Assembly (NCBI GenBank): GCA_947461225.1
Contig: CANHJV010000002.1
Location: 1-62,962 of the forward strand
Length of the DNA stretch: 62,962 nucleotides
DNA from: Gemmatimonadota bacterium
Lineage (GTDB): Bacteria > Gemmatimonadota > Gemmatimonadetes > Gemmatimonadales > Gemmatimonadaceae
Direction of reading: 5' to 3'
Position numbers and translations under genes: made by a program. The notes under the pieces were generated by a model, which did not search any database, had not been told where the DNA came from, and saw nothing but the letters and a program-made list of their open reading frames with translations. Of this stretch, positions 6,182 through 17,519 are shown piece after piece; position 1 is the first letter of the stretch; each line of letters opens with the position of its first letter.

Positions 6182-6604
6182 ATGGCCGCTGCGAAGAAGT
6201 CTGCGAAGAAAGCTGCAAAGAAGGCCGCCCCGAAGAAGGCCGCCGCCAAGAAGGCGCCTGCGAAGAAGGCCGCCCCGAAGAAGGCCGCGGTGAAGAAGGC
6301 CGCCCCGAAGAAGGCCGCCGTGAAGAAGGCGCCGGCCAAGAAGGCCGCCAAGCGTACGCCGAACGCGGCGTTCATGAAGGCCCTGACGCCGAGCAGCGAG
6401 CTCGCCGCCGTCGTCGGCGACAAGCCGCTTCCGCGTACGGAAGTCGTGAAGAAGCTGTGGGCCTACATCAAGAAGCACGGCCTGCAGGATGCCAAGAACA
6501 AGCGCAACATCAACGCCGACGACAAGCTCAAGGCCGTGTTCGGTGGCAAGAAGTCCGTCAGCATGTTCGAGATGACGTCGCTGGTCTCCAAGCACCTGTC
6601 GTAA
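6182..6604 (+). CDS. SWIB/MDM2-domain protein with histone H1-like Lys/Ala/Pro-rich N-terminus
   Basis: The 140-residue protein has two parts. Residues 1-57 are almost only Lys, Ala and Pro in repeating AAKKA and APKKA units. Residues about 60-140 are a SWIB domain (ALTPSSELAAVVG, LPRTEVVKKLWAYIKKHGLQD, KAVFGGKKSVSMFEM). SWIB domains occur in eukaryotic chromatin remodellers and in chlamydial DNA topoisomerase/SWIB fusions, and the basic tail resembles bacterial histone-like proteins, so nucleoid binding is a reasonable inference. A good ribosome site (AGGAG, 5 bases before ATG) fixes the start. The gene is followed by a strong terminator, so it is probably monocistronic and well expressed. 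Confidence 0.9.
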   Translation: MAAAKKSAKKAAKKAAPKKAAAKKAPAKKAAPKKAAVKKAAPKKAAVKKAPAKKAAKRTPNAAFMKALTPSSELAAVVGDKPLPRTEVVKKLWAYIKKHGLQDAKNKRNINADDKLKAVFGGKKSVSMFEMTSLVSKHLS

Positions 6605-10599: not shown

Positions 10600-11601
10600 A
10601 TGGCATTGGGCGATTTTCTCCGTAAGCAGTTCATCGACGTCATTCAGTGGACCGAATCCGGTCCCGGCGTCCTTATGTATCGCTTCCCCATGCAGGACAT
10701 GGAGATCCAGAGCGGCGGCCAGCTGACCGTTCGCGAATCGCAGCTCGCGCTCTTCGTGAATGAAGGCCGTGCGGCGGATCTCTTCGTGCCGGGGTTGCAT
10801 TCGCTCGTCACGGCGAATTTGCCGTTGCTCACGAATCTCCAGAATTGGGACAAGGCGTTCCAGTCGCCGTTCAAGAGCGACGTGTACTTCTTCTCCACGC
10901 GCGTCCAAACCGGACAGCGGTGGGGCACACAGCAGCCGATCACGATCCGCGACAAAGAATTCGGCGCGGTTCGTCTGCGCGCGTTCGGCATGTATGCGTT
11001 CCGTGTGGCCGATGCGGCGGTGTTTCAGGCGAAGGTCGGTGCCACCGACGCCGCGTACACGGTGGCGCAGATCGATCCGGCGTTACGCAACGCGATCATG
11101 AGTGGCTTCACGTCGGCGTTCGCCAACGCGCAGGTGCCGTTTCTCGATATGGCGGCGAATCAAGCGGAGCTGGCCAAGCAGATTGCCGCGGCGGTGCAGC
11201 CGGCGTTTGCCGAACTCGGTCTCGCGCTCGAGTCGTTCACCGTCGAGAACCTGTCGCTCCCCGACGAGCTGCAGAAGCGCCTCGACGAGCGCATCTCGAT
11301 GAACATGATCGGCGACCTGCGTCAGTACACGCAGTTCCAGGCGGCACAGTCGATTCCCATTGCCGCCGCGAATACCGGTGGGATGGCGGGACTCGCGGCC
11401 GGCATCGGGGCCGGCGTCGGGCTCGGTGGCATCGTGAGTGATGCCATGCGCGGCGCGACGGGTACACCGGCGGCGGGCGTGGCGGCCGGTGCGGCCGCTG
11501 AAGCGGCACCTTCCGGCGAGACCAAGTTCTGCATGAACTGCGGCGCCAAGCTGCCGGTCGCCGCCAAGTTCTGTTCGTCCTGCGGCGCGCCGCAGGGCTG
11601 A
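10600..11601 (+). CDS. SPFH-domain protein with C-terminal zinc ribbon
   Basis: The 333-residue protein has an SPFH/band-7-like core (about 20-240) of the YdjI/virion-core-protein type: VIQWTESGPGVLMYRFP, RESQLALFVNEG, then SFTVENLSLPDELQKRLDERISM. A Gly/Ala-rich linker (about 258-302) leads to a double CxxC ribbon, CMNCGAKLP and CSSCGAPQG. SPFH proteins make membrane-associated scaffolds; no membrane segment is obvious here, so attachment may be peripheral. A GGGAG ribosome site lies before ATG. This is the first gene of an eight-gene operon with polyamine enzymes, which suggests a role in membrane stress or in organising that pathway. Confidence 0.85.
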   Translation: MALGDFLRKQFIDVIQWTESGPGVLMYRFPMQDMEIQSGGQLTVRESQLALFVNEGRAADLFVPGLHSLVTANLPLLTNLQNWDKAFQSPFKSDVYFFSTRVQTGQRWGTQQPITIRDKEFGAVRLRAFGMYAFRVADAAVFQAKVGATDAAYTVAQIDPALRNAIMSGFTSAFANAQVPFLDMAANQAELAKQIAAAVQPAFAELGLALESFTVENLSLPDELQKRLDERISMNMIGDLRQYTQFQAAQSIPIAAANTGGMAGLAAGIGAGVGLGGIVSDAMRGATGTPAAGVAAGAAAEAAPSGETKFCMNCGAKLPVAAKFCSSCGAPQG

Positions 11602-11630
11602 CGCGGCCACGGCGCATCCTCACACATCGC

Positions 11631-12023
11631 GTGATTCCGTCGGTGCACCACACCGGCAGCGAATGGGTCGTCGAGGCATACGGGTGCGATCCCGTGCGTC
11701 TCGCCGATCCGGCGTCGCTGCGGGCGCTCTTTGGCGCCCTCGTCCACGAGCTCTCGTTGCATCCGGTGGGCGAGCCCGTGTGGCATCAGTTTCCGGCGCC
11801 CGGCGGCATCACGGGGATGCTCATGCTCGCCGAGTCGCATCTCACCGTGCACACGTTCCCCGAGCATGCCTCGGCGTGCCTCAACCTGTTTTGCTGCACA
11901 CCGCGTGCCGCGTGGGACTGGGAGGCGCGGCTTGCGGTGCTGCTGGGGGCACAGGCCGTGCGCGTGCGCGAACTCGCCCGCGAGTACGCGAACATCCCGG
12001 CCACTGCAGAGGGACTCCGGTGA
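11631..12023 (+). CDS. speD: S-adenosylmethionine decarboxylase proenzyme
   Basis: The 130-residue product matches the small prokaryotic, self-processing AdoMet decarboxylase. The motif ESHLTVHTFPE contains Ser69, the residue expected to become the pyruvoyl group after backbone cleavage; His74 and Cys89 lie at the spacing of the processing and catalytic residues known in the Thermotoga enzyme (Ser63, His68, Cys83). It would make decarboxylated AdoMet, the aminopropyl donor used by the SpeE protein encoded downstream. The start is GTG at 11631 with a weak ribosome site. Its TGA overlaps the GTG of the next gene. Confidence 0.88.
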   Translation: MIPSVHHTGSEWVVEAYGCDPVRLADPASLRALFGALVHELSLHPVGEPVWHQFPAPGGITGMLMLAESHLTVHTFPEHASACLNLFCCTPRAAWDWEARLAVLLGAQAVRVRELAREYANIPATAEGLR

Positions 12024-12664
12024 CGGTGCCACAACCGCATGGCGTCGCGTGCCCGAATTGCGGCGCGCCGGTACGCTTCCTCTGGGCACAGGCGGTGCAG
12101 ACCACCTGCGTCTACTGTCGGTCGGTGCTCGTGCGCCGCGATCTCGATCTCGCCACGCTCGGGCAACAAGCCGACTTCCCGGCCACCGGCTCGCCGATTC
12201 AGATCGGCACGGAAGGCGAGTGGCACGATCAGCGCTTCGTCGTCGTGGGGCGCATTGCCTACGGGTGGGCGCGCGGCAAATGGAACGAGTGGCACTGCGT
12301 ACTTGCCGACGGCAGCAGCGCCTGGTTGTCGGATGCGCAACTCGAATACGCCATGACGATCGCCGCGCCGACAGACTTCGAGGTGCCCGCCGTGATGCAG
12401 GTGGGGGTGGGCGAGACGTATTTCTGGAACGACACGCCGTACGAGGTCGCTAGCATCACCGAGGCCCGCTATCTCGGCACCGAGGGCGAGCTCCCGTTCA
12501 CCACGTGGGAGAAGTCGGCCTGTCTGTTCATCGATCTGCTCAACGCACAGCACGGACTGGCCACGATTGACGGCTCGGAAGCCCCGCCGATGCTGTTCCT
12601 TGGTGAGTTCGTGAACTTCGACGATCTCCGTTTCCGGAATCTGCGCGAGTTCGAAGGATGGTAG
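12020..12664 (+). CDS. DUF4178 protein with N-terminal zinc ribbon
   Basis: The 214-residue protein starts with GTG at 12020, overlapping the speD stop (GTGA). A zinc ribbon (CPNCGAPVRF, then CVYCRSVLVRRD) occupies residues about 9-35. The rest is a DUF4178 beta-rich domain: GTEGEWHDQRFVVVGRIAYGW, WNEWHCVLADGSSAWLSDAQ, and VGVGETYFWNDTPYEV. DUF4178 has no proven biochemical role. I know it as a recurring partner of DUF350 and polyamine-type genes. No membrane segment or signal is present, so it is likely cytoplasmic. Confidence 0.85.
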   Translation: MTVPQPHGVACPNCGAPVRFLWAQAVQTTCVYCRSVLVRRDLDLATLGQQADFPATGSPIQIGTEGEWHDQRFVVVGRIAYGWARGKWNEWHCVLADGSSAWLSDAQLEYAMTIAAPTDFEVPAVMQVGVGETYFWNDTPYEVASITEARYLGTEGELPFTTWEKSACLFIDLLNAQHGLATIDGSEAPPMLFLGEFVNFDDLRFRNLREFEGW

Positions 12665-13980
12665 CGCCGCTCGAGACGCCGTCGGCGCGCGTACCTAAGG
12701 CCGCCGGATTCAACTGCTCCTCGTGCGGTGCGGCCATCGAGCTGCACGCGCAGGGATGGGCGGTGACGGTCGTGTGCGGCGCCTGCGGGGCGCAGCTCGA
12801 CGCCACCGACGAAAATCTGAAGATCCTGCAGTACGGCGAGAAAGTCTCGGCCACGCCGCGCATTCCACTCGGCACGCGCGGGACGTGGAAGGGTGCGCCA
12901 TGGGAGGTGATCGGCTTTCAGGTTGTCACCATCAGCGTGGAGGATACGGACTACTCGTGGACCGAGTACGTCTGCTTCAATCCGTACCGCGGCTTCCTGT
13001 ATCTCTCGGAGTATCAGGGACACTGGAACGTCATCGAAAAGTTGCGCCGGCGTCCTGAGCACGAAATGGGTGGCGTTCGCCCGTCCGTCGAATTCAACGG
13101 CACCACGTACAAGCACTTCCAAACGGCCAGTGCCTGCACCACGGCGGCCCTGGGCGAGTTCCCCTGGGAACTGCGCATGGGCGACCGCGTCGTGGGCCGC
13201 GATTTCGTGGCGCCCCCGTATATCCTGAGCGCCGAAGCGTCAGACAACGAGACCACGTGGTCGCTAGGCACGTACACGCCGCCCGAAGTGATTCAGAAGG
13301 CGTTCGGACTCACGAATCCGCTGATGCAGCCCATCGGCGTGTTCGCGAATCAGCCCAATCCCCACGCTGACACGCCGAAGCGCTTGATGGCGCGGTTCGC
13401 GCTGTCGCTGATCGCGCTGGTGCTGATGCTCGTGCTGAACGTCACGCTGGCCGGCAACCGCACCGTCTTCGAGCGCGCGTTTACGTTTTCGCGCGCACAG
13501 GAAGAGCAGGCCTCGGTCACCGATGCCTTCGACCTCGATGGCCGCACGTCGAACGTGGCGATCGATCTCGAGTCCGACCTCGACAACGACTGGCTCTTTC
13601 TCGTGCTGTCGCTGATCAATGAGACCACCGGCGAAACCCGCGAGGTCACCCGACAGCTCAGTTACTACCACGGCTCCGACAGCGACGGGTCGTGGACCGA
13701 GGGCGACAAACGCGAGACAGTGCGCATCGCATCGGTACCGGCTGGTCGCTATTTCGTGCGCGTGCAAGCCGAGGGCGGCGAACCGGGTCGGGCGTCGGCA
13801 TCCTACACCATGCGCCTCCGTCGCGATGTGCCGCACTACGGGTTCTACGGCATCGCCGTGCTGGCGCTGCTGCTGCCCGCGGTCCTGTCGATCTTCCCCG
13901 CCGCCAGTTTCGAAAGTCGACGCTGGGCGGAAAGTGATCACGCCCCCACGTCGAGCGGTCAGAGCGATGACGATGAGTAG
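12658..13980 (+). CDS. DUF4178 zinc-ribbon protein with membrane-anchored extracytoplasmic domain
   Basis: The 440-residue protein overlaps the previous gene by 7 bases. It has a zinc ribbon (CSSCGAAIEL, CGACGAQLDA), a DUF4178 domain (LGTRGTWKGAPWEVIGFQVV, YSWTEYVCFNPYRGFLYLSE), a membrane helix (about 246-263), a loop of roughly 130 residues with beta-sandwich character (FLVLSLINETTGETREVT, VPAGRYFVRVQAEGG) and a second helix (about 395-415). The C-terminus is acidic. The loop between the helices would face the periplasm, so the protein could pass a signal across the inner membrane. Function unproven. Confidence 0.82.
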   Translation: MVAPLETPSARVPKAAGFNCSSCGAAIELHAQGWAVTVVCGACGAQLDATDENLKILQYGEKVSATPRIPLGTRGTWKGAPWEVIGFQVVTISVEDTDYSWTEYVCFNPYRGFLYLSEYQGHWNVIEKLRRRPEHEMGGVRPSVEFNGTTYKHFQTASACTTAALGEFPWELRMGDRVVGRDFVAPPYILSAEASDNETTWSLGTYTPPEVIQKAFGLTNPLMQPIGVFANQPNPHADTPKRLMARFALSLIALVLMLVLNVTLAGNRTVFERAFTFSRAQEEQASVTDAFDLDGRTSNVAIDLESDLDNDWLFLVLSLINETTGETREVTRQLSYYHGSDSDGSWTEGDKRETVRIASVPAGRYFVRVQAEGGEPGRASASYTMRLRRDVPHYGFYGIAVLALLLPAVLSIFPAASFESRRWAESDHAPTSSGQSDDDE

Positions 13981-13992
13981 AGGGAGGCCCTG

Positions 13993-14178
13993 ATGGGCGC
14001 GCGTATCTACACCCTGTGGGTGGTCGCCGTGCTGGCGGTGCTGGGCGCGGCCCAGTACCGCGGCTGGAGTCTCACCCGAGCCAATGAGTCCCGCAATAAT
14101 CCCCGGTCGGTGCGCGACAATCCCGGCGCGTATCGCTCTTCGTACTACATCCCGGGGCGTACGCTCCGCGGCAAGTGA
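13993..14178 (+). CDS. Small single-pass membrane protein
   Basis: The 61-residue protein has one hydrophobic helix (about residues 5-20, LWVVAVLAVLGAAQY) and a basic, Asn/Arg/Tyr-rich tail. A clear GGGAGG ribosome site precedes the ATG. It has no recognised family. Its place between DUF4178 and DUF350 genes, where small membrane partners are usual, supports it as a real component of the operon. Confidence 0.7.
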   Translation: MGARIYTLWVVAVLAVLGAAQYRGWSLTRANESRNNPRSVRDNPGAYRSSYYIPGRTLRGK

Positions 14179-14188
14179 GGCCCCTGTC

Positions 14189-14398
14189 ATGGACCAGTTC
14201 GTTCAGAACGCAATCAGCTCCGCCGCCTACGCCCTGATCGGCGTGGTGATGTTCATCCTCGCGTTCATCGTCATCGACGTGCTCACCCCCGGCAAGCTGT
14301 GGGATGAGATCGGCGTGAAGAAGAACACCGCGGCCGCCATTCTCATGGGCTCGGTCGCTATCGCGCTCGGCATCATCGTCGCCGCTGCGATTCACTAA
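14189..14398 (+). CDS. DUF350 (YjfL-like) membrane protein
   Basis: The 69-residue protein has two membrane helices (about 11-32 and 46-68) separated by the cytoplasmic segment VLTPGKLWDEIGVKKN, a DUF350 signature. Escherichia coli YjfL belongs to the same family and is encoded beside the PspA paralogue YjfJ, which links the family to membrane stress. The start at 14189 follows the previous gene by 10 bases and its TAA is directly followed by the GTG of speE. Confidence 0.85.
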   Translation: MDQFVQNAISSAAYALIGVVMFILAFIVIDVLTPGKLWDEIGVKKNTAAAILMGSVAIALGIIVAAAIH

Positions 14399-15895
14399 GT
14401 GCCCCTCGCGCTGTTCATTTCGGTTTGTCTCATCGCCGCCTGTGGGCTCATCTATGAGCTCGTAGCCGGCGCGCTGGCGTCGTACCTGCTCGGCGATAGT
14501 GTCACGCAATTCTCGACCATCATCGGGACGTACCTGTTCGCAATGGGCATCGGCAGCTGGCTCTCGCGCTTTGTCACGCGTGGGCTGGTCACGCGGTTCG
14601 TGGTCGTGGAAATGCTGGTCGGTGTGGTCGGCGGCCTGAGTTCGCTGCTGCTCTTTCTCGCCTTCGCCTACACCGACGCGTTTCGCCCTACGCTGTACGG
14701 CATCGTGTTGCTCATCGGCATTCTCGTGGGGCTCGAGATCCCGCTGCTGATGCGCATTCTGCAGGATCGGTTCAGCTTCAAGGATGTGGTCGCGAACGTG
14801 CTCACGTTCGATTACATCGGCGCGCTCTTCGCTTCGTTGCTCTTCCCGTTGCTGCTGGTGCCACGACTCGGGCTCGTACGGTCGGCCCTGTTGTTTGGTG
14901 TGATCAACGTGCTGGTGGGGCTCTGGAGCACGTGGCTGTTTCGCGACGTCTTACCGCGCAAGAACTGGCTGCGCGCCGGCGGCGCCGTGGCGTTGCTGGT
15001 GCTGAGTGCCGGTCTCTGGAAGGGACAGCGCATCACCACGCTGGCCGAAGAAGGCATGTATGCCGATCCGATCATCCTCGCCAAGGATACCCGCTATCAG
15101 CGCATCGTCCTCACCAGCTGGAAGGACGATCTGCGCCTGTATCTGAACGGGCACCTGCAGTTTGCCTCGCGCGATGAATACCGCTATCACGAAGCGCTCG
15201 TACATCCCGGCTTATCGGCGGCGACGGCACGCGGCCGCGTGCTGGTACTGGGCGGGGGCGACGGTCTCGCGGTGCGCGAGATTCTCAAGTATCCCGATGT
15301 GCAGCAGGTCACGCTGGTCGACCTCGACGAAGGGATGACGGCGCTCTTTCAGCAGCATCCGCGTCTGACCGGCCTCAACGCCAACGCCCTCACCGACCGA
15401 CGGGTGCGCGTGGTGAACGCCGATGCCTTCACCTGGCTCGACAGCTCAGCCGTACACTTCGACTTCGTCGTGATCGATTTTCCCGATCCGTCCAACTACC
15501 ACGTGGGCAAGCTGTACACGAGTGCGTTTTACCGGCTGGTGAAGCAACACATCGCGCCGGGCGGCTTTCTGGTAGTGCAGAGCACGTCGCCCATGTTCGC
15601 GCGTCAGTCGTTCTGGAGCATCGTGACCACCCTCGAAGGCGCCGGACTGCGCACGTGGCCGTATCACGTGTACGTGCCGAGCTTCGGCGAGTGGGGCTTC
15701 GTGATTGCGGGGCTCAGCAGCTATGCGCCGCCCGCCACGCTCCCCGACGGCCTTCGGTATCTCACCGCGTCCACTGTGCCGGCGCTGTTCGACTTTCCGG
15801 CCGATATGCAGCGCGTACCGGCGCTGGCCAACCGGCTGAATGATCAGGTGCTCGTTCGCTACTACGAGCACGAGTTCGACGCGATCAACCGGTGA
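14399..15895 (+). CDS. speE: Membrane-embedded polyamine aminopropyltransferase (spermidine synthase-like)
   Basis: The 498-residue protein fuses a polytopic membrane domain (residues 1-205, about six or seven helices) to a soluble aminopropyltransferase domain. The latter shows the decarboxy-AdoMet site VLVLGGGDGLAVREIL, acidic residues in VTLVDLDE, NADAF and the catalytic-loop DFPDPSNYHVGKLYT. Ordinary SpeE enzymes lack the membrane part. It should transfer an aminopropyl group from the product of SpeD, but no ornithine or arginine decarboxylase is encoded here, so the acceptor amine is unknown. The GTG start abuts the DUF350 stop codon. Confidence 0.88.
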   Translation: MPLALFISVCLIAACGLIYELVAGALASYLLGDSVTQFSTIIGTYLFAMGIGSWLSRFVTRGLVTRFVVVEMLVGVVGGLSSLLLFLAFAYTDAFRPTLYGIVLLIGILVGLEIPLLMRILQDRFSFKDVVANVLTFDYIGALFASLLFPLLLVPRLGLVRSALLFGVINVLVGLWSTWLFRDVLPRKNWLRAGGAVALLVLSAGLWKGQRITTLAEEGMYADPIILAKDTRYQRIVLTSWKDDLRLYLNGHLQFASRDEYRYHEALVHPGLSAATARGRVLVLGGGDGLAVREILKYPDVQQVTLVDLDEGMTALFQQHPRLTGLNANALTDRRVRVVNADAFTWLDSSAVHFDFVVIDFPDPSNYHVGKLYTSAFYRLVKQHIAPGGFLVVQSTSPMFARQSFWSIVTTLEGAGLRTWPYHVYVPSFGEWGFVIAGLSSYAPPATLPDGLRYLTASTVPALFDFPADMQRVPALANRLNDQVLVRYYEHEFDAINR

Positions 15896-15905
15896 TCGTG
15901 TTCCG

Positions 15906-17519
15906 ATGACCACGTCGCGTCGCGACTTCGTGCGCGCCCTCGGCATCATCGCGGCCGCACCGGCACTGGTGGGGCTCACCGCTAAGGGCCGCGTGATCGG
16001 CGGGGGCTTCGTGCCCGATGGCAGCGCCGACGGCCATCTGCTGCGTGACGGTGCCGCACGCGCTCGATTCCGTACGAACGCGACACGGCGCGCCGAACGC
16101 CGCGTGAAGGTCGCCATCGTGGGGGGCGGCATGGGCGGCCTCTCGGCGGCGTGGAAGCTCGATGCGGCGGGGATGCACGACTGGACGCTGCTGGAAATGG
16201 ATGCCCGCACCGGCGGCAACGCGCGCTCGGCCGATTATCGCGGGCAACGCGCACCGTGGGGAGCGCATTACGTGCCGGTACCGTCCGTCGATGCGGTGCA
16301 CGTGCGCCAGCTGTTCCGCGAACTCGGCGTGCTCGGCGCCGATGGCGTGTGGGATGAGCGCGTGCTCTGTCACACGCCGCAGGAGCGGATCTGGCAACAC
16401 GGCCGTTGGCACGAGGGGCTCGAGCCCACCGATGCGATGTCACGGGCGCACCGCGACCAGTTTCGTCGGTTCGAGGAGCGCATCGCCGACTGGCGCCACA
16501 CGGGCATGTTCAGCGTGCCAAGCGCGGAGGGACACGCCCGCCGACGTGCTGCGTCTCGCGCCGGTGGAGCCGCTGCCAAGCAAGCCGCGGCCGTGGAAGC
16601 GCTCGACACGCAGACCGCGCTGGCGTGGATGACGCGCGAAGGCTTCGATGCGCCGGCGCTGCGGTGGTGGGTGGAGTACGGCACGCGCGATGACTACGGC
16701 GCGTCGCTCAGTCAGGCCAGCGCCTGGGCGGCCGTACACTACTTCGCTGGTCGCGACGCCGACGAGCAGGGCCCGCTCACCTGGCCGGAAGGCAACGACT
16801 TCATTGCGCAGCAACTCACGCAGCGGCTGTCGGCGCGCCCGCACGCCGACGGCCGCATTGTCACCGGCGCACCGGCCTGGCAGATCGTGCGCAGCGGAAC
16901 CCGATGGATCGTGGATACACCGTCGGAACGCATCACCGCCGACGCGGTGATCTGGTGCGCGCCGCTGTTCGTCCTCCCGCTCGTGTGTGAGGGCGTCACG
17001 CTCCCTGTGACGCACGAGTACGCGCCGTGGGTAGTGGCCAACCTCGTGATCGATCGGCCGCCGGCATCGGCGGGCGCTGAGCTGGCGTGGGATAACGTGA
17101 TTTATGGCAGCCGATCACTCGGCTACGTGAATGCGGCCCATCAGGGGGTGGGCACGCCGCCCGATCGCACGGTGTGGACGTGGTATCACGCCGTGGTCGA
17201 TCGCCCGGCGCCCGAGGCGCGACGATACCTGCAGCAGCGCGCCTGGAGCGGGTGGCGTGATGAAATCCTCGCCGATCTGTCGCGTGCACATCGCGACATC
17301 GCCGACTGTGTGGCGCGCATCGATATCATGCGCTGGGGGCACGCGATGGCGCGCCCCACACCGGGCGTCCTCGGCCGCGTGGCCGCGCTGCAGTCGTGGC
17401 AGCCCGCGCCGCGGATGTTCGTGGCGCATGCCGACCTGAGTGGGTTGAGTCTCTTCGAAGAAGCGCAATGGCACGGGGTCCACGCGGCCGCTGAGGCGGT
17501 GCGCGTGCTGGCTGGCTAG
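15906..17519 (+). CDS. Tat-exported FAD-dependent amine oxidase
   Basis: The 537-residue flavoprotein starts at 15906, which places the twin-arginine motif SRRDF at residue 4 followed by a hydrophobic segment (GIIAAAPALVGLTA). The dinucleotide fold reads VAIVGGGMGGLSAAWKL with the acidic end of strand 2 in LLEMDARTGGNARS. The C-terminal FVAHADLSGLSLFEEAQWHG segment resembles the FAD-binding end of flavin amine oxidases and protoporphyrinogen-oxidase-like enzymes. It lies 10 bases after speE, so a polyamine or other amine substrate outside the cytoplasm is a reasonable inference. The upstream in-frame extension is rejected because it hides the Tat signal. Confidence 0.83.
   Translation: MTTSRRDFVRALGIIAAAPALVGLTAKGRVIGGGFVPDGSADGHLLRDGAARARFRTNATRRAERRVKVAIVGGGMGGLSAAWKLDAAGMHDWTLLEMDARTGGNARSADYRGQRAPWGAHYVPVPSVDAVHVRQLFRELGVLGADGVWDERVLCHTPQERIWQHGRWHEGLEPTDAMSRAHRDQFRRFEERIADWRHTGMFSVPSAEGHARRRAASRAGGAAAKQAAAVEALDTQTALAWMTREGFDAPALRWWVEYGTRDDYGASLSQASAWAAVHYFAGRDADEQGPLTWPEGNDFIAQQLTQRLSARPHADGRIVTGAPAWQIVRSGTRWIVDTPSERITADAVIWCAPLFVLPLVCEGVTLPVTHEYAPWVVANLVIDRPPASAGAELAWDNVIYGSRSLGYVNAAHQGVGTPPDRTVWTWYHAVVDRPAPEARRYLQQRAWSGWRDEILADLSRAHRDIADCVARIDIMRWGHAMARPTPGVLGRVAALQSWQPAPRMFVAHADLSGLSLFEEAQWHGVHAAAEAVRVLAG

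Follow-up and report, generated by a model that had tools for sequence, protein, structure and literature searches.

Aminopropyltransferases of the SpeE family that carry a seven-transmembrane (7-TM) domain, TM-SpeE, have been described in operons with DUF350 and DUF4178 proteins, and the main text of Ravi 2024 links these operons to PSP and suggests the aminopropylation of substrates other than polyamines (PMC11237479). The main group described there contains PspA, a CesT/Tir protein, an 8-TM DUF350 protein and the Ctha_1186 lipoprotein; a band-7 variant, in a 2TM-SHOCT and ATP-grasp context, contains an S-adenosylmethionine (AdoMet) decarboxylase and a polyamine oxidase (PMC11237479). We analysed a related operon in a window of 62,962 nucleotides, the whole of positions 1 to 62,962 of contig CANHJV010000002.1 (assembly GCA_947461225.1), from a Gemmatimonadota bacterium whose genome bin of 3.7 Mb is 88.7% complete. 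The operon has the 7-TM TM-SpeE, the DUF350 protein (at half size) and DUF4178 in common with the operons of Ravi 2024, and an AdoMet decarboxylase and an amine-oxidase-fold protein in common with the band-7 variant, polyamine oxidation by the window protein being putative. It differs from that variant in having a Band_7_1 protein with a zinc ribbon. Among its eight products we found no PspA and CesT/Tir dyad, no ATP-grasp ligase and, at E 0.1, no SHOCT domain. A preliminary description of the window had taken the set for a distinct, little-described system, a claim that we withdraw since both the TM-SpeE/DUF350/DUF4178 operons and the band-7/AdoMet decarboxylase/polyamine-oxidase variant are already present in PMC11237479. 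As far as a literature search shows, the new elements are a C-terminal lysine common to unlike partner proteins, the fusion of this tail to DUF4178, a predicted outside location of the catalytic domain and a single oxidase branch. No report of the lysine tail was found in the literature searched, and the main text of PMC11237479, to which this check extended as distinct from the supplements, contains neither 'lysine' nor 'C-terminus'.

Several other systems come close to the operon in one respect or another. Two E. coli proteins with a tail of similar kind, YjfM and YgiB, end in -GG, and their genes lie beside those of YjfC and YgiC, annotated in RefSeq as peptide--spermidine ligases. The paper behind these ligase systems is reportedly Pederick 2023. 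The yjfIJKLMC operon shares a DUF350 protein and a PspA homologue with module-type loci, and in both yjfIJKLMC and ygiBC polyamine chemistry goes together with a DUF1190 protein whose C-terminal tail is rich in G/S/R. The E. coli systems use a ligase, of the ATP-grasp family according to the relevant parts of PMC11237479 and PMC12568646, and a -GG ending, whereas the module has SpeD and SpeE and a -GK or -HK ending. By analogy, E. coli would ligate spermidine to a terminal carboxylate, and the module would grow a polyamine on a terminal lysine. The P. aeruginosa speD2/speE2 pair, cited in the preliminary description as a partial precedent, is a weak one: its class 1b AdoMet decarboxylase adjoins an aminopropyltransferase, as in module-type pairing, and an exported SpdH is proposed to act on the product, but SpeE2 is a thermospermine synthase of 349 aa, which leaves no room for a 7-TM domain, and the description of the pair in PMC11107197 includes no DUF4178, DUF350 or tail protein. 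SpeE2 of Pseudomonas ISS resembles the window SpeE in having a SpeE domain with N-terminal TM helices, and its deletion has a genetic effect. However, its three catalytic Asp residues, kept in TM-SpeE, are replaced (T556, E624, P627) and its neighbours are other ones, and on the active site as given in PMC7298707 we set it aside as a homologous precedent. In four genomes of the window's genus (G112, G219, G301, G308; genome labels G### and locus labels L### are the numbering used in this analysis), open frames of ~850-880 aa contain a SpeE domain and come close to this protein in size. In the deoxyhypusine synthase/hypusine system a polyamine-derived group is placed on a lysine, and in microcin C aminopropylation a SpeE-like enzyme acts on a peptide conjugate. 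Compared with the module proposed here these two systems have a different donor or enzyme, are cytosolic and act on single dedicated targets.

In the window's operon the lysine tail is found in an open reading frame (ORF) of 61 aa at 13993-14178, which the preliminary description did not discuss and which is a conserved part of the module. It encodes a small protein with one TM helix, the tail protein, that ends in ...PGRTLRGK; the C-terminal lysine is invariant and is encoded here by AAG at 14173-14175. We compared it with two sets of loci: the neighbourhoods of 33 other genomes with a close TM-SpeE, retrieved from 297 other genomes sampled in the phylum, and the best 80 loci from a scan of an 84,980-species collection with two patterns of the SpeE alignment, which gave at least 585 confirmed relatives. 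Outside the phylum loci were picked by their SpeE regardless of neighbours, and families were then assigned by iterated profiles. The small protein ends in -GK at all 33 other phylum loci and at 2 Acidobacteria loci. Unlike small proteins at the equivalent position in other loci end in -HK, lipoproteins or anchored proteins of PspA/8-TM-DUF350-type loci end in -GK, and so do DUF4247 lipoproteins at two Bacillota loci. An anchored partner with a -[GH]K ending was present at 101 of the 114 TM-SpeE loci (120 loci minus L069-L074, where SpeE is soluble or divergent). These partners often look unrelated to one another; they include small one-TM proteins, DUF4247 lipoproteins, and lipoproteins or other anchored proteins of ~190-545 aa. 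At six loci, five of Comamonadaceae type (L114, L115, L116, L119, L129) and one of Sorangium (L133), DUF4178 itself carries the tail as its C-terminus, preceded by one hydrophobic segment.

The count of 101 was obtained from a strict scan for ORFs within 6.5 kb of SpeE that encode a hydrophobic segment, a last stretch of 12 residues rich in G/S/H/R/N/Y/P and a penultimate G or H. When the hits at the 114 loci were sorted by last residue, lysine led with 98, followed by R (25), G (18), P (13), A (10) and others with fewer. A chance match at L112 was removed from the 98 and four loci (L075, L110, L123, L136) were added by hand; at L139 the strict match is antisense and the locus's own cut lipoprotein ends in -LGK, and L086, with a -GGGKN ending, was left out. 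As background, with the tails included, an HK ending occurred in 0.3% of 16,062 ORFs of at least 35 aa from the 120 loci and a GK ending in 0.66% of 12,982 ORFs of at least 45 aa. Tail-positive loci comprised all 33 of the phylum, all 37 others that have DUF4178 together with SPFH or oxidase, and 98 of the 106 loci with any module partner; at five of the 13 tail-negative loci (L082, L089, L098, L104, L153) the sequence stops 1 kb or less upstream of SpeE. The tail was also kept where profiles detected no oxidase, SPFH, DUF4178 or DUF350, and at L093, L095 and L097 it is encoded immediately upstream of SpeE with no other module family detected. The terminal codon of 98 tail ORFs (L050 and L051 each entered twice) was AAA in 50 and AAG in 48, all three stops were used, and TAA or TAG followed in 53 of 98. 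The use of both codons and all stops indicates that lysine was selected as an amino acid and, with the 53 TAA or TAG stops, rules out a DNA-level artefact of stop/start overlap.

Similar results were obtained with fresh plasmid loci. All seven with an intact SpeE encode a membrane protein with C-terminal lysine, six with a -[GH]K and one with a -VK ending. They derive from 8 retrieved out of 11 matches, one of the eight (L166) being a SpeE fragment; H1 (identical to L060) and H5 and H9 (of the genus or species of H4 and H8, with near-equal scores) were left out. Since loci had been chosen by SpeE, the company of tail and SpeE was partly built in, and we therefore ran the reverse search with the small protein alone. 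Its profile matched 34 of the 298 phylum genomes, each at E 4e-18 or better, and these are exactly the genomes with a close TM-SpeE; the best match in the other 264 was partial, at E 0.001.

TM-SpeE (14399-15895, + strand as for all eight genes, 498 aa; PF01564 Spermine_synth, 3.4e-33) consists of seven TM helices followed by an aminopropyltransferase domain and passes the NCBIfam model for polyamine aminopropyltransferase, NF002956, with 689 bits against a cut-off of 472. Residue, topology and cysteine counts were taken over 98 rows, the window and 97 loci, after 17 of the 114 loci with a matched stretch below 430 aa had been dropped. Seven hydropathy peaks over the 98 sequences bear out the membrane-embedded SpeE of the preliminary description. 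Four residues, Y263 (98/98), D288 (95/98), D360 (98/98) and D363 (98/98), would by our own mapping correspond to the spermidine synthase catalytic residues Y76, D101, D173 and D176 in T. maritima numbering, as listed in the relevant part of PMC7298707. Other positions conserved in TM-SpeE (K371, H423, P427, W432) are mostly different in five non-TM SpeE, where P427 is common to two and W432 to one. The loops after TM2, TM4 and TM6 were richer in Lys+Arg than the other loops in 97 of 98 SpeE (mean 9.4 versus 3.7, over 47 versus 45 columns). By the positive-inside rule these loop charges place the N-terminus inside and the catalytic domain outside, so that the catalytic domain is likely to lie outside the membrane. 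The tails of the lipoproteins lie outside as judged from the lipobox by eye, and an outside position is also expected for tails that follow a zinc-ribbon DUF4178 and a single helix.

We tentatively propose, as a reading that falls somewhat short of an even chance, that the operon is an envelope aminopropyl-transfer module in which the C-terminal lysine of a membrane-anchored partner serves as aminopropyl acceptor. SpeD in the cytosol would make decarboxylated AdoMet, and the 7-TM SpeE would move its aminopropyl group onto the side-chain amine of the partner's C-terminal lysine, here that of the 61-aa protein. The product would be a polyamine-like C-terminal tail, with a chemistry comparable to that of deoxyhypusine. 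The donor would have to cross the membrane because the loop charges suggest an outward catalytic domain, possibly via the 7-TM domain or DUF350. The two DUF4178 proteins and SPFH would hold the complex together at the inner face, and in the window's lineage the exported flavin oxidase may trim, erase or oxidise the modified amine, by analogy with the action of LSD1 on methyl-lysine tails. In this scheme we infer the acceptor, the membrane side, the export of the donor and the substrate of the oxidase. The tail is preferred as acceptor because it is kept without other partners, because its C-terminal lysine, at the end of a flexible Gly/Ser-rich arm, resembles a substrate, and because of the parallel with the -GG tails of E. 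coli. The suggestion of the preliminary description that the acceptor may be something else in the membrane is thus narrowed: an acceptor other than free putrescine is plausible, and the best candidate is the operon's own small lysine-ended protein.

SpeD (11631-12023, 130 aa; PF02675, 1.1e-24) is predicted to be a class-1b-type AdoMet decarboxylase proenzyme. Over 71 rows (five others were left out of the count), S69 was present in 71, H74 in 70 and C89 in 67; we take these to be the pyruvoyl-forming Ser/His/Cys of class 1b, with the same spacing as S63/H68/C83. The oxidase (15906-17519, 537 aa; PF13450, 5.3e-14) was expected from the preliminary description to be an exported flavin enzyme, and its model and N-terminus bear out an amine oxidase fold and a Tat-like twin-arginine start. 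The AlphaFold2 (AF2) model (pLDDT 92.5) matched 8p84, 9h5p and 2yg6 with E 5e-22 to 5.5e-21 and TM-scores of 0.63-0.75 and is thus closest to bacterial monoamine oxidase, 9h5p being a putrescine complex, and to putrescine oxidase. In a profile search spermidine dehydrogenase SpdH and LSD1 ranked below monoamine oxidase. Among Pfam domains NAD_binding_8 alone was above cut-off, and the amine oxidase domain was not. The GHxLR motif was present in 63 of 66 long homologues and a twin arginine, scored in these 63, preceded it in 61.

The eight genes are tightly packed on the + strand, with all the parts given in the preliminary description in place and intergenic distances of 29, -4, -7, 12, 10, 0 and 10 bases in order. 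The first encodes an SPFH/Band_7_1 protein with a C-terminal zinc ribbon (10600-11601, 333 aa; PF13421, 2.5e-74; PF13240, 2.3e-7). SpeD is followed by DUF4178 protein a (12020-12664, 214 aa; PF13785, 1.8e-15), which has no TM helix and is taken as cytosolic, and by DUF4178 protein b (12658-13980, 440 aa; PF13785, 4.1e-21), in which a zinc ribbon, the DUF4178 domain, a TM helix, a beta domain and a further TM helix succeed one another. Each of the two has an N-terminal CxxC...CxxC ribbon. The AlphaFold2 model of protein b (pLDDT 92.1) comprises a beta-rich part, a helix at 239-264, a beta domain at 268-389 and helices at 394-424, which we read as the expected loop domain between membrane helices; among the 50 Foldseek matches listed, TM-scores did not exceed 0.23. 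In the alignment its beta domain between the two TM helices has a conserved acidic-aromatic motif around YYxGxDxDxSWxEGS, which could bind cations or polyamines. The half-size DUF350 protein (14189-14398, 69 aa; PF03994, 2.6e-14) has two predicted TM helices and aligns to profile positions 3-65 of 133 only. A promoter and terminator scan gave no signal exceeding that of shuffled sequence. Upstream of the operon, an ORF at 6182-6604 encodes a lysine/alanine/proline-rich protein of 140 aa that by eye resembles bacterial histone-H1-like proteins.

With the window SpeE as query, 42 of the 298 phylum genomes (its own included) matched at E 1e-20, and in 34 of these the identity was 67-100%. The gene order recurs in 33 of the 297 other sampled phylum genomes, with some losses of parts, and also in other phyla, a conservation that is not a product of chance. 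This holds for the speD-DUF4178-DUF350-speE(TM) set, whose conservation had been put forward as a check, and also for the recurrence of SPFH and the oxidase. SpeD was present at 31 of 33 other phylum loci and DUF4178 at 32, the exceptions being contig ends, and the small protein and DUF350 at all 33 each. SPFH was present at 25 and the oxidase at 28. No SPFH gene was detected at six loci of one family with sufficient flank (L055, L056, L058, L059, L061, L067) or at two cut loci (L050, L065). No oxidase gene was detected within 7 kb downstream at L056 and L067 or within 2.3 kb downstream at L065, and at L052 and L059, where none was seen, the sequence stops within 0.4 kb. At the six SPFH-less loci DUF4178 proteins a and b form a single ORF with four CxxC pairs, which we regard as good evidence for a joint action of the two. 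In each of the 34 module genomes SpeD matched at 71 bits or above. Many module-less phylum genomes have a second SpeD-like family with weaker scores (about 38-67 bits), which is also present as an extra copy in several module genomes. Its substrate could be another amino acid, as is the case for other SpeD relatives according to the relevant part of PMC10407285.

Rearranged and in some cases reduced, the module was also found outside the phylum, among others in Sphingomonas, Cupriavidus, Massilia, Janthinobacterium, Variovorax, Thiobacillus, Dyadobacter, Spartobacteria, Oligoflexus, Obscuribacterales and Bryobacterales. At the Sorangium locus DUF4178 and the oxidase were the only module partners detected by profiles. 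The DUF4178 profile is incomplete and overlooked L068 and L085, where Pfam detects the domain. At 13 Burkholderiales-type loci SpeD-DUF4178-SPFH-DUF350 is divergent from SpeE-oxidase, and on a Novosphingobium plasmid the annotated order is SPFH, DUF4178, DUF4178, hypothetical protein, DUF350, polyamine aminopropyltransferase, FAD oxidoreductase and SpeD. In a 72-row SpeE tree, which leaves out 26 of the 33 phylum rows and longer PspA-type SpeE loci such as L068 and L076, all 48 oxidase-bearing rows fall in one branch of 52 rows with support of 100/98. At the four oxidase-less rows of this branch (L056, L104, L119, L137) no oxidase gene adjoins SpeE, with at least 1.8 kb available downstream. 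A membrane protein of ~350-376 aa is encoded directly 3' of the oxidase at eight non-Gemmatimonadota loci (L105, L113, L120, L122, L123, L128, L136, L140); the L105 member, the sole one scanned, gave no Pfam match. An aldehyde-dehydrogenase-like gene, so judged by eye, lies shortly downstream of the oxidase at L091, L141, L143, L147, L150 and L151, and such a neighbour fits amine oxidation with an aldehyde as product. Five loci, L112, L124 and L145 (Bacteroidota), L101 and L107, have a TM-SpeE with little or no module, and no lysine tail was found there; these are possibly the ancestral or a free-acting form.

Several observations weigh against transfer to the terminal lysine outside the membrane. 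We know of no precedent for the use of decarboxylated AdoMet outside the cytosol, and an exporter of the donor is hypothetical. For the arginine-rich tail of the window itself, the positive-inside rule would predict an inside location. The catalytic domain is without cysteine in 64 of the 98 TM-SpeE, and five non-TM SpeE have 2-7 cysteines each. This cysteine poverty is a weak support for the topology because it is shared by SPFH (0.28 per 100 aa) and absent from the exported oxidase (0.84), and we set cysteine content aside as too weak a proof. SpeD misses the TIGR03330 equivalog cut-off (64.6 versus 75.65 bits), although it meets that of Pfam. No tail was found at seven TM-SpeE loci with flanks (L100, L101, L107, L112, L124, L145, L149), four of which (L100, L124, L145, L149) have SpeD or oxidase as a neighbour. 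Within the phylum the small protein tracks the whole module and not SpeE alone, and outside it every locus was selected via SpeE, so that tails in SpeE-free genomes fall outside the sample. The tail itself could be a docking or regulatory element. Finally, the residues of ordinary small-amine aminopropyltransferases are kept, so that the acceptor could be putrescine or agmatine, and the genome has a SpeA gene outside the operon.

These last points lead to the chief rival of lysine modification, a free-amine product: the module would be the lineage's membrane-anchored synthase of spermidine or N1-aminopropylagmatine, delivering its product to or across the envelope, with an oxidase that degrades the excess outside and a tail protein that is an accessory. 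The module SpeE and SpeD are the sole PF01564 and PF02675 matches in the bin, which together with the encoded SpeA makes such a product possible, and of 21 genomes of the genus 15 have SpeE and SpeD of the module on one contig, with a sole PF01564 match in 11 of the 15. The preliminary description had stated that a decarboxylase for putrescine is missing, which is correct for the operon and not for the genome, where a 652-aa arginine decarboxylase (SpeA; L034; PF02784, PF17810, PF17944) is encoded on another contig; agmatine, at least, can thus probably be made elsewhere in the genome. The nearest solved relative of TM-SpeE is 1uir, a polyamine aminopropyltransferase from Thermus, and the top folds of the oxidase include the putrescine complex 9h5p. 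The bin has a single arginase-family protein; Pfam does not separate arginase from agmatinase, and we read it as the former rather than the latter. In the same genus G055 has a protein that we read as SpeB-like, and second arginase-family matches of similar size occur in G079, G250, G302 and G307. A carboxyspermidine route was rejected, as PF02784 in the 88.7%-complete bin yields only the arginine decarboxylase and a protein that we read as LysA-like, and no carboxyspermidine decarboxylase (CASDC) was seen. The absence of a SpeD match at E 1e-8 from 197 of the 298 phylum genomes, including G112 of the same genus (96% complete), suggests that a free-polyamine route is dispensable in the phylum and weakens housekeeping spermidine as a sole answer. 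A synthase of free amines would also leave unexplained a near-invariant C-terminal lysine on unlike partners, and we consider it rather unlikely.

In a further rival reading the -[GH]K tail would stay unmodified and, as a docking or pseudosubstrate element, place its lysine in the pocket of SpeE or the oxidase, the module then sensing polyamines or envelope stress and signalling via DUF4178 and SPFH. A C-terminal lysine resembles half of a polyamine, the tail is fused to DUF4178 at six loci, and SPFH or PspA-type partners suggest stress sensing. A pseudosubstrate need not, however, sit strictly at the C-terminus, and at several loci no DUF4178 was detected near the tail by the profile, which missed L068 and L085; we judge docking to be improbable. 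Fusion of the transferase to a 7-TM domain, and the envelope protection in Pseudomonas by analogy, would also agree with transfer to a lipid head-group amine such as that of phosphatidylethanolamine, giving a cationic membrane lipid. That acceptor leaves the lysine tail unexplained and no lipid enzyme is found among the eight products, which makes it very improbable. The terminal lysine of an anchored partner remains the acceptor that we favour.

A broader extension of lysine modification, which we regard as doubtful, is that the tails mark a widespread extracytoplasmic modification in which a 7-TM SpeE and exported decarboxylated AdoMet would build a polyamine on -GK or -HK lysines, with a periplasmic LSD1-like eraser in one large branch, and that E. 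coli-type operons may reach a similar product through ligation of spermidine to -GG tails. SpeE proteins that carry this signature have a wide distribution, given at least 585 relatives in the 84,980-species collection, and the terminal-lysine rule turns a vague link between polyamines and membrane stress into one testable residue per operon. Even as a mere docking tag, the lysine would be a common feature for DUF4178, DUF350 and several lipoprotein families. If the proposed transfer is true, the bacterial envelope would have a new type of protein modification, and an AdoMet-derived donor would be used outside the cytosol, possibly as the first such case.

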